43,072 nucleotides of DNA from an uncultured Pelagibacteraceae bacterium (GTDB taxonomy: Bacteria > Pseudomonadota > Alphaproteobacteria > Pelagibacterales > Pelagibacteraceae): contig CACHRX010000006.1 of assembly GCA_902582385.1 (NCBI GenBank), forward strand, positions 1 to 43,072. Reading direction: 5' to 3'. A program made the translations under genes and the position numbers. The stretch's first letter is position 1, and the number at the start of each line of letters is the position of its first letter. Shown in pieces: positions 21,857-28,440 of the stretch. Below the pieces are notes generated by a model. That model was given only the letters and a program-made list of their open reading frames with translations, ran no database searches and was not told the DNA's origin.

Positions 21857-23677
21857 GTGGAAAGAATAATTACTAAATCATTTGCCAGATTAATGGGTCG
21901 AGGTACTCATAGAGGTTTCATTACTTACGAAGAATTAAGTAAATCACTAGGCAAAAGAAATTTATCTGATGAAAACTTGTCTCAAGCTTTCATTCATATT
22001 TTAAATGAAAATGTTGTTTTGGTTGAAAAAAAATCTGATTTTAAAGTTTTAAGAAAAAAAGAGTCAACAAAAGAAGAGGGAAAAACAATTGAAAAAAGTG
22101 ACGATCCAATAAGAATGTATCTTAGAGAAATGGGTGGTGTCGAACTTCTTTCAAGAGAGGGTGAAATAGCAATTGCAAAAAGAATTGAAGCAGGAAAAGA
22201 TGTAATGTTAATAGCATTATCTCAGAGTCCAATTACAGCATTACAATTTTTTGAATGGAATGAAAAATTACAAAAGGATGAAATTTTAGTAAGAGAGATT
22301 ATAGATATCGATACAAACTATATGGAGGATGAGTCAACAGGTCCTAGTGCTAAACAAAAAAATGCTGGAGAAGTAGATAAAGAGGATGGATCAACTGAAG
22401 ACGATGATGATTTTAATCCCACACTTGCAGCAATGGAAACTGAAATTAAACCAAAAGTACTCAAAACAGTTCATACTCTTACAAAAGAATATAATAAATT
22501 AATTAAATATCAAAAAGAAAAGTTGGACTGTCTCTTAAATTCAAAAATTTTTTCAAATGCAAAAGAAAAAGGCTACGAAAAAATAGTAAAAGACATACTT
22601 GAAAATATTAAATCCCTACAATTATCTCCATCTGTCCTAGAAGACCTTGTTCAGAAACATTATACAGAGAATAAAAAAATTATTTCTTTAGAAGGGAATC
22701 TTTTGAGGCTTGCTATGGATCATAAAATTTCTAGGAATGAGTTTATCAAGTTTTATATTGGAAATGAAATCAACCCTAATTTAAAAAAGTTTTTAGATAC
22801 TAATACAGTTTGGAAACAATTTTTTACAAAAAATAAAAATGAATTTAAAAATATAAGAGAGAGGCTAATCGAAATAAGTACAAAACTTGGAATGTCTGTA
22901 ACAGATTTTAAAAAATTAGTAAGCAGAGTACAAAAAGGTGAAAAAGAATCCAGAATAGCAAAAAAAGAAATGGTCGAAGCTAATTTAAGATTAGTTATTT
23001 CAATAGCAAAGAAATATACAAATAGAGGATTACAATTTTTAGATTTGATTCAAGAAGGTAACATTGGGTTAATGAAAGCGGTTGATAAGTTTGAATATAG
23101 AAGAGGCTATAAGTTTTCAACTTATGCAACTTGGTGGATAAGACAAGCAATAACGAGATCTATAGCTGATCAAGCTAGAACAATCAGAATTCCAGTTCAT
23201 ATGATAGAAACAATTAATAAAATTGTGAGAACTCAAAGATTAATTTTAAGTGAATTTGGAAGAGAAGCTACCCCTGAAGAATTAGCAAAAAAACTTAGAA
23301 TGCCATTGGATAAAGTAAGAAAAGTTTTAAAAATTTCAAAAGAACCAGTTTCTTTAGAAAAACCAGTAGGGGATGAAGAAGATAGCAGTTTAGGTGATTT
23401 CATTGAAGATACAAAAGCTTTGGCTCCATTAGAACAAGCAATAAAATCAAATTTAGGTGAGGCAACAACAAAAATTTTATCAACTTTAACTCCAAGAGAA
23501 GAAAGAGTTTTGAGAATGCGTTTTGGTGTAGGGATGAATACCGATCATACTTTAGAGGAAGTTGGACTTCAATTTTCAGTTACAAGAGAGAGAATTAGGC
23601 AGATTGAGGCTAAAGCTTTAAGAAAACTAAAACATCCTAGTAGATCAAAGCAATTAAAAAGCTTTTTAGAGAGTTAG
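21857..23677 (+). CDS. rpoD: RNA polymerase primary sigma factor (sigma-70)
   Basis: Housekeeping sigma factor, 606 residues. Region 1.1 is visible ([21 protein letters not shown]), region 1.2 as [21 protein letters not shown], an acidic non-conserved insert (about 165-200, with DEDDDD-like runs), then region 2 ([67 protein letters not shown]), region 3, and region 4.2 helix-turn-helix ([30 protein letters not shown]). The start is GTG at 21857; an in-frame TAA at 21833 prevents a longer form and no ATG precedes region 1.1. A perfect TTGACA stands at 21822-21827, but the possible -10 (TTTAAT, 21847-21852) lies only 4 bases before the GTG. tRNA-Val follows 8 bases after the stop. Confidence 0.97.
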
Positions 23678-23685
23678 CTTTAATT

Positions 23686-23760
23686 GGGCCGTTAGCTCAA
23701 TAGTAGAGTACTGCATTGACATTGCAGGGGTAGTTGGAGCGTAACCAACACGGCCCACCA
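23686..23760 (+). tRNA. tRNA-Val (GAC) with non-standard D- and T-loops
   Basis: All four stems pair: acceptor GGGCCGT/ACGGCCC, D-stem GCTC/GAGT, anticodon stem CTGCA/TGCAG around loop TTGACAT (anticodon GAC), T-stem GTTGG/CCAAC, and CCA is encoded. The T-loop is AGCGTAA instead of the near-universal TTCRANY form, and the 7-nt D-loop (AATAGTA) has a single G where GG is expected. Position 48 is A rather than a pyrimidine. U8 and A14, and a possible G19-C56 contact, are kept. The other tRNA in this window has normal loops. It lies between rpoD and a glycosyltransferase gene whose ribosome-binding site begins at the final A of CCA. Confidence 0.8.
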
Positions 23761-23769
23761 GAGGTAAAA

Positions 23770-24669
23770 ATGGATAAATATCTTAGCAAAGAAAAAATCA
23801 CAATTGGAGTTGCAGCACACGGAAATTTGATATCTACAAAAAACTGTATTCAAGCAATAAAGAATTCACTAGATGGTGTCTATGAAGTTATATTAATTGA
23901 TGATTTTTCACCAGACAAAGGGGAAATTAAAGATTATTTTTTAAATCAAAAAAAAGAGTTTAAGGAAATTAAAGTTTTTCATTTTTCAGAAAACCTGGGA
24001 TATACGCAAAGTGTTAATTGTGTTTTGTCAAATTCAACTAGTGAAAAGACTATTTTCGTTTCTAATGATATCTATATAACTCCTTTTTTTTTAGAGGAAT
24101 TAATTAATATATCAGATTTCAATGAGAATATTGGCTATGTAAGAGGTGTTTCAAACTTTGTTGATAATAATTTAGAAACACATAATATTAGTCTTAAAGA
24201 TAAAAATCATATTCACCTCAATGAAATTTCTAAAGAAATATTTTCAAAAGAAAAAAATAATTTTATTGATGAAGATTATCTAGTTGGAGATTGTTTTTTA
24301 ATTAACAGAAAATTGTTGAATAAAATTGGATATTTTGACTGTAATAATTTTAAAGATTATTTTTCAGATCTTGATTTCAGTATTCGCACTAAAGCACTTG
24401 ATTTTAGATGTGTATTGTCCAAGGGGGCTTTTTGTTATCACCATAGAAATATTAATTTTGATTATCTTCCAAAAAATGAAAGAAATAAAAAATTATTTAA
24501 AAGACAATATACTTTAGCTGAGGATTGGGCTCGTTTTAAAATCAAGTATAATTTTCCAATTAATTTGGTTTATCCAGGAATTAATAAAATGAATTTTGAT
24601 GAAATCAAAAATAGAGTTGGTAAAAAAGATTTTATTGAAAAAAAAGATTATTCTCAATATCTTATTTAA
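23770..24669 (+). CDS. Family 2 glycosyltransferase
   Basis: A 299-residue GT-A fold sugar transferase without a membrane segment. Opening strand TIGVAAHGNLISTKNCIQAI, nucleotide site VILIDDFSPDKGE, the DxD-equivalent strand TIFVSNDIYITPFFLEEL (here SND), VGDCFLINRKLLNKIGYFD (acceptor-side helix), and FSDLDFSIRTKALDFRCV (family 'ED.dl..R...G'). The start is ATG at 23770 with AGAGGT at 23760-23765 a few bases upstream; the frame also opens at 23734 but that would begin inside the tRNA. It is followed 26 bases later by a multi-pass membrane protein. The donor and acceptor sugars cannot be read; a surface glycan is likely. This pair looks accessory compared with the core genes around it. Confidence 0.8.
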   Translation: MDKYLSKEKITIGVAAHGNLISTKNCIQAIKNSLDGVYEVILIDDFSPDKGEIKDYFLNQKKEFKEIKVFHFSENLGYTQSVNCVLSNSTSEKTIFVSNDIYITPFFLEELINISDFNENIGYVRGVSNFVDNNLETHNISLKDKNHIHLNEISKEIFSKEKNNFIDEDYLVGDCFLINRKLLNKIGYFDCNNFKDYFSDLDFSIRTKALDFRCVLSKGAFCYHHRNINFDYLPKNERNKKLFKRQYTLAEDWARFKIKYNFPINLVYPGINKMNFDEIKNRVGKKDFIEKKDYSQYLI

Positions 24670-28079: not shown

Positions 28080-28440
28080 CTGCCAGATAAATGACTTGTC
28101 ACTTTAATTTATTTTAAAGAGGAAAGTCCGGGCTCCGCAAGGATACAGTGCCAGGTAATACCTGGCGGGGGAAACCCCAGGGACAGTGCCACAGAAAATA
28201 AACCGCCATAACATGGCAAGGGTGAAAAGGTGTGGTAAGAGCACACCGGTTCTATTGGTAACAATGAACGCTGGAAAACCCCACTGGGAGCAAGACTAAG
28301 TAGAGATGACATTGTTGAAAAACTAAAAGCCATCCTTGGCTAGTCATCAGGGTTAGTTGCTTGAGCTTAAGAGTGATCTTAAGCCTAGACAAATGATAAG
28401 TTTAAATGACAGAACCCGGCTTATAGTTTATCTGGCAAAT
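28080..28440 (+). ncRNA. rnpB: RNase P RNA (catalytic subunit)
   Basis: The ribozyme that trims tRNA 5' leaders. The ends pair perfectly as helix P1: 28081-28091 (TGCCAGATAAA) with 28427-28437 (TTTATCTGGCA). The conserved core is present: GAGGAAAGTCCGGGCTCC at 28120-28137, the ACAGTGCC and GGGTGAAAAGG segments, the AGTAGAGATGA region and the 3' ACAGAACCCGGCTTATAG that forms P4 with the 5' core. The length of about 360 nt is type A. It occupies most of the 559-base gap between the amidase gene and mraZ. The RNA begins shortly downstream of a TATAAA. No clear hairpin terminator follows; the dcw promoter begins about 75 bases later. Confidence 0.96.

Follow-up and report, generated by a model that had tools for sequence, protein, structure and literature searches.

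Two contacts of the tRNA elbow, G18-Psi55 between the D-loop and the T-loop and T54-A58 within the T-loop, are regarded as near-universal, and Pan et al. (2006) reportedly linked the 18-55 pair to fast translocation. Zagryadskaya, Doyon and Steinberg are said to have obtained suppressor tRNAs from libraries of D- and T-loop sequences, from which it reportedly emerged that other loop combinations can work. Staphylococci, in turn, set cell-wall glycine tRNAs aside from translation. In the normal elbow, residue 18 is inserted between residues 57 and 58 and is bonded to residue 55 (PMC4810234, PMC7912444). Natural departures from this arrangement include the eukaryotic initiator tRNA, in which A54 pairs with A58 and U55 and G18 stay (PMC7912444), as well as tRNA-Sec, for which a 16-59 contact has been reported, and tRNA-Pyl, which is without the GG and TPsiC motifs (PMC7609411).

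Here we describe a real tRNA-Val(GAC) gene with a truly non-standard elbow. It lies in a 43,072-nucleotide stretch of DNA (the window, contig CACHRX010000006.1 of assembly GCA_902582385.1, G000) from an uncultured bacterium of the Pelagibacteraceae (SAR11), with the following features:

21857 to 23677, + strand: rpoD-type sigma-70 gene, with its stop 8 bases upstream of the tRNA (a linkage that recurs in the genus)
23686 to 23760, + strand: tRNA-Val(GAC) gene with encoded CCA (ARAGORN, Rfam and sequence)
23699 to 23705, + strand: D-loop AATAGTA, with A18 at 23702 and G19 at 23703 (numbered via alignment to 7-base normal loops)
23718 to 23720, + strand: anticodon GAC (sequence and ARAGORN)
23728 to 23732, + strand: variable loop GGGTA including A48 (sequence and comparison with normal copies)
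23738 to 23744, + strand: T-loop AGCGTAA, that is A54, G55, C56, G57, U58, A59 and A60 (sequence)

ARAGORN and the Rfam model RF00005 agree on a start at 23686 on the + strand and on the anticodon GAC, the RF00005 score being 53.6 bits versus a gathering score of 29. The intact stems and encoded CCA of the original prediction are borne out by both programs and by the sequence itself, in which the acceptor (GGGCCGT/ACGGCCC), anticodon (CTGCA/TGCAG) and T (GTTGG/CCAAC) stems and a D-stem with one G-U pair (GCTC/GAGT) form a complete cloverleaf that is followed by ACCA at the 3' end. The identity bases for valine are A35, C36 and A73, and the gene has the GAC anticodon along with the A73 discriminator, as expected for a bacterial elongator tRNA-Val(GAC). 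The predicted T-loop AGCGTAA, inverted 54-58 pair, A48 and possible G19-C56 contact can likewise be read directly from the sequence. The assembly (973,546 bases in 44 contigs, 82.6% complete) has 25 other tRNAs, including tRNA-Val(TAC), and all 25 display a TTC-type T-loop and a GG D-loop; tRNA-Phe is missing from this assembled set. The same prediction had described the D-loop as having one G in place of GG. The GG is indeed absent, but no base has been lost: the loop has 7 bases as in the normal forms AGTGGTA and AATGGTA and, because normal copies of equal length exist, the change is a substitution of G18 by A18. A48 was dismissed as part of the swap since several normal copies carry it.

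Compared to the canonical elbow (G18-Psi55, G19-C56, T54-A58), the window tRNA retains the cloverleaf, the loop lengths, the G19-C56 pair (as aligned with normal copies) with its C56 and a purine at position 57, but has A18 and G55 instead of G18 and U55 (Psi55), A54 and U58 instead of U54 and A58, and A60 instead of a pyrimidine. With the eukaryotic initiator tRNA (PMC7912444) it has A54 in common and differs from it by U58, G55, A18 and its nature as an elongator-type valine tRNA. tRNA-Sec and tRNA-Pyl are likewise natural tRNAs with other contacts between D- and T-loop (PMC7609411), yet they feature altered arm lengths and special amino acids, unlike the ordinary cloverleaf and standard amino acid seen here. 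The staphylococcal cell-wall tRNA-Gly is said to share with the window tRNA the altered D- and T-loop bases and to coexist with normal isoacceptors, whereas no second Val(GAC) was found beside the window tRNA. The suppressor tRNAs of the Steinberg group, finally, come from laboratory libraries and may already contain A18-G55. In a search of open-access literature, neither an A18-G55 elbow nor odd elbows of SAR11 tRNAs were found to have been described, and any novelty of the A18-G55 elbow is limited to that literature.

In odd copies the change from G18 to A18 is accompanied by a change from U55 to G55. Among 177 distinct SAR11 tRNAs, taken from loci fetched mainly for Val(GAC) so that the counts are not frequencies, 28 have A18-G55 and the other 149 have G18-U55, with no mixed form (the tally required a 7-base T-loop and C56, both of which all 177 have). 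The A18-G55 form occurs in 21 Val, 5 Phe, 1 Thr and 1 Tyr tRNAs: the complete genome of G012 (32 tRNAs) carries it in Val(GAC), Phe(GAA) and Thr(GGT), G190 (another genus of the same family) in Val(GAC) and Tyr(GTA), and G037 (another family of the order) in none of its 27 tRNAs. As A18-G55 is found in different tRNAs of different genomes, these sequences indicate several separate swaps of the 18-55 pair. Inversion of the 54-58 pair from U-A to A-U, as in the window tRNA, is separable from this swap. G222 combines A18-G55 with a normal U54-A58 and thus represents an intermediate, the Phe, Thr and Tyr forms of SAR11 resemble G222 in this regard, and phages also have A54-U58 together with the normal G18-U55 (T-loop ATCGTAA; this pattern matched 4 viral contigs), so that the two modules are seen in every one of their four combinations. 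Pairing between positions 16 and 59 is possible in 20 of 20 distinct SAR11 sequences with inverted 54-58 (16 as U-A, 4 as A-U), and in some phage copies this pairing is broken (U16 with U59). By analogy with tRNA-Sec, we suggest that tRNAs with inverted 54-58 may gain an added 16-59 contact.

We propose that A18-G55 would take the place of the G18-Psi55 pair between D-loop and T-loop, with G19-C56 retained. A18 would slot in where G18 normally sits and would touch G55, such that a purine pair of another shape would join the loops and keep the L shape. G55 could plausibly make the sharp backbone turn that is normally made by U55, much as the leading G does in a GNRA loop. The inverted A54-U58 pair would represent a further adjustment.

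In the genus, the odd tRNA is widely conserved. Among 36 further genomes, 22 have a copy that is 99-100% identical over all 75 bases (100% in 20), 6 have a variant or a piece of it and 8 have no match. In the variant copies the acceptor, anticodon and T stems are altered by compensating pairs and the odd loops are unchanged. We then scanned 397 genomes of the order with a covariance model [271 from the window's genus (g1), 50 from g8, 7 from g9, 4 each from g5 and g6, 5 from g7, 1 each from g10, g11 and g12, and 53 from the family f2] and found that approximately 226 of the 271 genomes of g1 score like verified odd copies (best E ≤ 1.2e-24). Of the remaining 45 genomes of g1, normal copies were read in 12 and one intermediate was read as well, the others giving their best match to other tRNAs only. 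A scan of named genomes for the window's form, although no proof of absence in other groups, matched at least 120 loci; the 120 retrieved are all listed under Pelagibacteraceae, Pelagibacterales or Candidatus Pelagibacter, and each of the 118 Val(GAC) calls made by ARAGORN in them has the odd loops. A Phe-like A18+G55 pattern matched 2 of 385 genomes of the class, both from the window's genus, and a slightly wider one matched 0 of 398 genomes of the phylum; both patterns fix the D-stem and a U54-A58 T-loop and are blind to the window's own T-loop, making these narrow negatives. In G028 (L037:1501-1532) only a 3' piece of the odd Val tRNA is present, running from the variable loop to the CCA with the 5' half not nearby. 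An intron in this copy was rejected, as Rfam gave no match and only the 3' piece is there; the piece may be what is left of a mobile element's attachment site.

The odd and normal Val(GAC) genes both adjoin rpoD within the genus and represent alternating forms at one locus. Among 238 loci (200 odd, 24 normal and 14 without a Val(GAC) call), an rpoD match was found at 162 of the 200 odd versus 11 of the 24 normal loci, and 12 of the 13 normal loci without such a match belong to other genera. In a tree built from rpoD at 61 loci (9 of them normal and 52 odd, from genome-search loci with at least 280 aligned residues), the normal state is unclustered: it requires 9 changes, at least 4 of them forced by well-supported branches, compared to a mean of 8.5 after shuffling, bearing in mind that the rpoD tree need not equal that of the tRNA. 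Between sister genomes, differences in this gene are almost confined to the elbow. The window's form and that of G286 differ only at one acceptor pair and at positions 18, 54, 55, 58, 59 and 60, and the forms of G198 and G316 differ at one T-stem pair and the same six positions, indicating from these alignments that the elbow positions change as a block between near-identical pairs. Under the original prediction, normal T-loops at this locus in related strains, if paired with raw reads that contradict the assembly, would have counted against it. Normal copies do exist (12 were read in the genus), but as a form that alternates across many species, which is no sign of an error. The downstream GT2 glycosyltransferase was rejected as a partner of the tRNA, as it is matched in just 3 of the 238 loci; in the window, its longest frame (23734-24669) begins within the tRNA, and an ATG lies at 23770, ten bases past the CCA end. 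Farther downstream, the window holds a class A RNase P RNA (28083-28439, + strand, 289.6 bits).

We also wondered whether a normal tRNA-Val(GAC) accompanies the odd one, as the original prediction had proposed to check. Neither the complete genome of the relative G012, with 32 tRNAs, nor the window's assembly, 82.6% complete and with 26 tRNAs, was found to have one. From its sequence, the window tRNA thus looks like the sole valine tRNA with a G34 anticodon, facing GUU and GUC, which together make up 319 of the 512 valine codons in 27 reading frames of the window. On the basis that anticodon, A73 and CCA are as expected and that G012 has no other Val(GAC), it most likely reads GUC and GUU, and tRNA-Val(UAC) might share the reading of GUU. 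We envision that it would be charged with valine and would act as the main decoder of both codons. The earlier suggestion that it might be read less efficiently or serve another purpose finds no support here.

The alteration of two normally universal loops could be taken to mean that the window tRNA is a decayed pseudogene or an assembly error, and a decayed odd copy does exist in the relative G338, from another genus (L091:1501-1575, - strand, with stem mismatches and the T-loop AGTGTAA; its normal Val(GAC) lies on a different contig). Such an origin is ruled out, with virtually no probability left to it, because the same loops recur in many independent genomes with compensated stems. This conservation, together with the coordinated changes at 18-55 and 54-58, upholds the earlier proposal of a rebuilt elbow rather than decay. 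A tRNA that is set aside from translation, akin to the staphylococcal cell-wall glycine tRNAs, would be in line with altered D- and T-loops that weaken the usual elbow contacts. We consider this very improbable, as no companion normal isoacceptor exists in G012 or G000, as GUU and GUC account for the majority of the valine codons counted, and as Phe, Thr and Tyr tRNAs share the swap. Instead, conservation, compensated stems, covariation of positions 18 and 55, separate modules and alternating forms at one locus, all of them sequence features, lead us to conclude with good though not full confidence that the gene probably encodes a functional elongator tRNA-Val(GAC) in which non-standard but covarying tertiary contacts hold the elbow.

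As Psi55 is made by TruB, we determined the distribution of this enzyme with a search that was positive in 14 of 14 control genomes. TruB was matched in 56 of the 397 genomes of the order: in 14 of 14 from g5, g6, g7 and g11, in 42 of 53 from f2 and in 0 of 330 from g1, g8, g9, g10 and g12. This pattern reveals a clean, lineage-specific loss of TruB in five genera, including the window's, with TruB present in sister genera. With TruB undetected in the genus, its tRNAs probably carry no modification at position 55. The escape from TrmA and TruB that had been predicted for the window tRNA holds insofar as the bases they modify are absent, but escape from TruB is moot in a genus in which TruB is undetected. 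Many TruB-less relatives have a normal Val(GAC), and since these include five genomes of the genus, TruB does not explain the state of the elbow. A search for TrmFO in 21 genomes gave nothing above the cut-off of 428.65; 20 of the 21 have partial matches only (49-58 bits, covering positions 276-387 of the profile, in open frames of 622-640 codons) that we take to be MnmG, and TrmFO looks absent in all 21 genomes tested.

The A18-G55 elbow is also found in viruses. An A18+G55 pattern matched at least 120 contigs of IMG/VR, and in 120 such loci ARAGORN called 238 G55 tRNAs of 48 named anticodon types, located in 107 of the loci. When the tRNAs that match the pattern, as well as any lacking a 7-base T-loop or C56, are left out, these phage loci contain 477 distinct tRNAs, of which 111 are A18-G55, 333 G18-U55 and 14 G18-C55, with a few unassigned; 12 of the 477 break the rule for A18-G55. 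Some clusters are dominated by the A18-G55 form (18/18 tRNAs on L513, 18/18 on L452, 16/18 on L491, 14/15 on L414 and 11/13 on L481), and most of the other clusters have one or a few such tRNAs. Mixed forms occur as well and argue against an absolute rule: by pattern counts that come without a tally of the normal G18+U55 form, A18+U55 had 62 matches in IMG/VR viral contigs (55 called as tRNAs, 27 of which also have GG in the D-loop) and G18+G55 had 9 (5 called as tRNAs). A first scan of viral sequences hit 4 loci, of which 2 lack a tRNA, and two large viral contigs (519 and 210 kb) encode a Val(GAC) with the T-loop AGCGTAA or AGCGTTA. A relaxed pattern gave 9 loci, of which two were known, and ARAGORN called Val(GAC) in none of the other seven (the matched stretch was read in three of these). 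The window tRNA had no match in the phage collection. Since seven annotated cultured phages have no G55 tRNA (some have A54), A18-G55 is not a general phage trait.

What might have caused the swap is a separate matter from how the odd tRNA folds. Constraint could have relaxed in such a manner that, without TruB, position 55 is not Psi, G18-U55 offers little advantage, and A18-G55 is neutral or nearly so, drifting in and out. The distribution of TruB across the genera fits with this notion, as does the fact that tRNA-Phe is swapped in the copies read from the TruB-less g1, g8 and g9 and not in the TruB-bearing G190 and G037. Yet g7 has TruB and nonetheless has odd Val(GAC) (G131, G362 and G190) and odd Tyr tRNAs, by which loss of TruB as sole cause is rejected, and the odd Val form is identical across many species, unlike what drift would give. 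We hence regard relaxed constraint as possible, with the balance of evidence against it, and concede that having no Psi55 to keep after the loss of TruB may conceivably have eased the swap in the genus. Another cause could be conflict, the odd elbow being a device shared by phages and hosts that shields a tRNA from an enzyme (of a phage, a toxin or a defence nuclease) that reads or cuts the normal elbow. This would accord with the spread of the odd elbow among phage tRNAs, including those that fill some clusters, with the two large viral contigs whose Val(GAC) has the same loops, and with the alternation of the two states at one SAR11 locus. The idea is rather unlikely, more so than relaxed constraint, as it names no particular nuclease, as the seven annotated phages are without a G55 tRNA and as the window tRNA is unmatched in the phage collection.

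Whatever its cause, we lean towards the broader interpretation that A18-G55 in place of G18-Psi55, with or without the inverted A54-U58, could constitute a second natural tRNA elbow that would have arisen repeatedly, affect several SAR11 tRNAs, alternate with the normal form at one locus and fill nearly whole clusters in some phages, while removing the target base of TruB and altering the face shown to factors that read the elbow. The window tRNA, with A18 and G55 and G19-C56 kept, belongs to this proposed class. The recurrence of A18-G55 in both SAR11 and phages, as a matched replacement for a contact that is nearly universal in tRNAs, suggests that there is a second natural means of holding the L shape. 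A covarying natural substitute in a very abundant bacterial group offers a direct test of the necessary role of the 18-55 pair, to which the sister genomes lend themselves, as their copies of this gene are almost alike outside the elbow. Such a substitute is also relevant to the ways in which TruB can be lost, to tRNA-finding models in which TTC is expected and to the question of why certain phages hold whole tRNA clusters with the A18-G55 elbow.

Other elbow variants were seen in phages. A54 accompanies the normal G18-U55 in L356 (LR745206.1), L357 (Synechococcus phage S-CBWM1) and L590 (Mesorhizobium phage Cp1R7A-A1), with the T-loops ATCGTAA, ATCGTTC and ATCGAAA. tRNAs of L342, L357, L359, L395 and others have G18-A19 with U56 (T-loop TTT..), that is A19-U56 in place of G19-C56. 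Of the 14 tRNAs with G18+C55 (T-loop TCCGA..), 11 reside on L500 and L488 from IMG/VR. Lastly, Bacteriophage DSS3_MAL1 (L592:11705-11778) encodes a tRNA with a CTA (amber) anticodon that is annotated as tRNA-Pyl.
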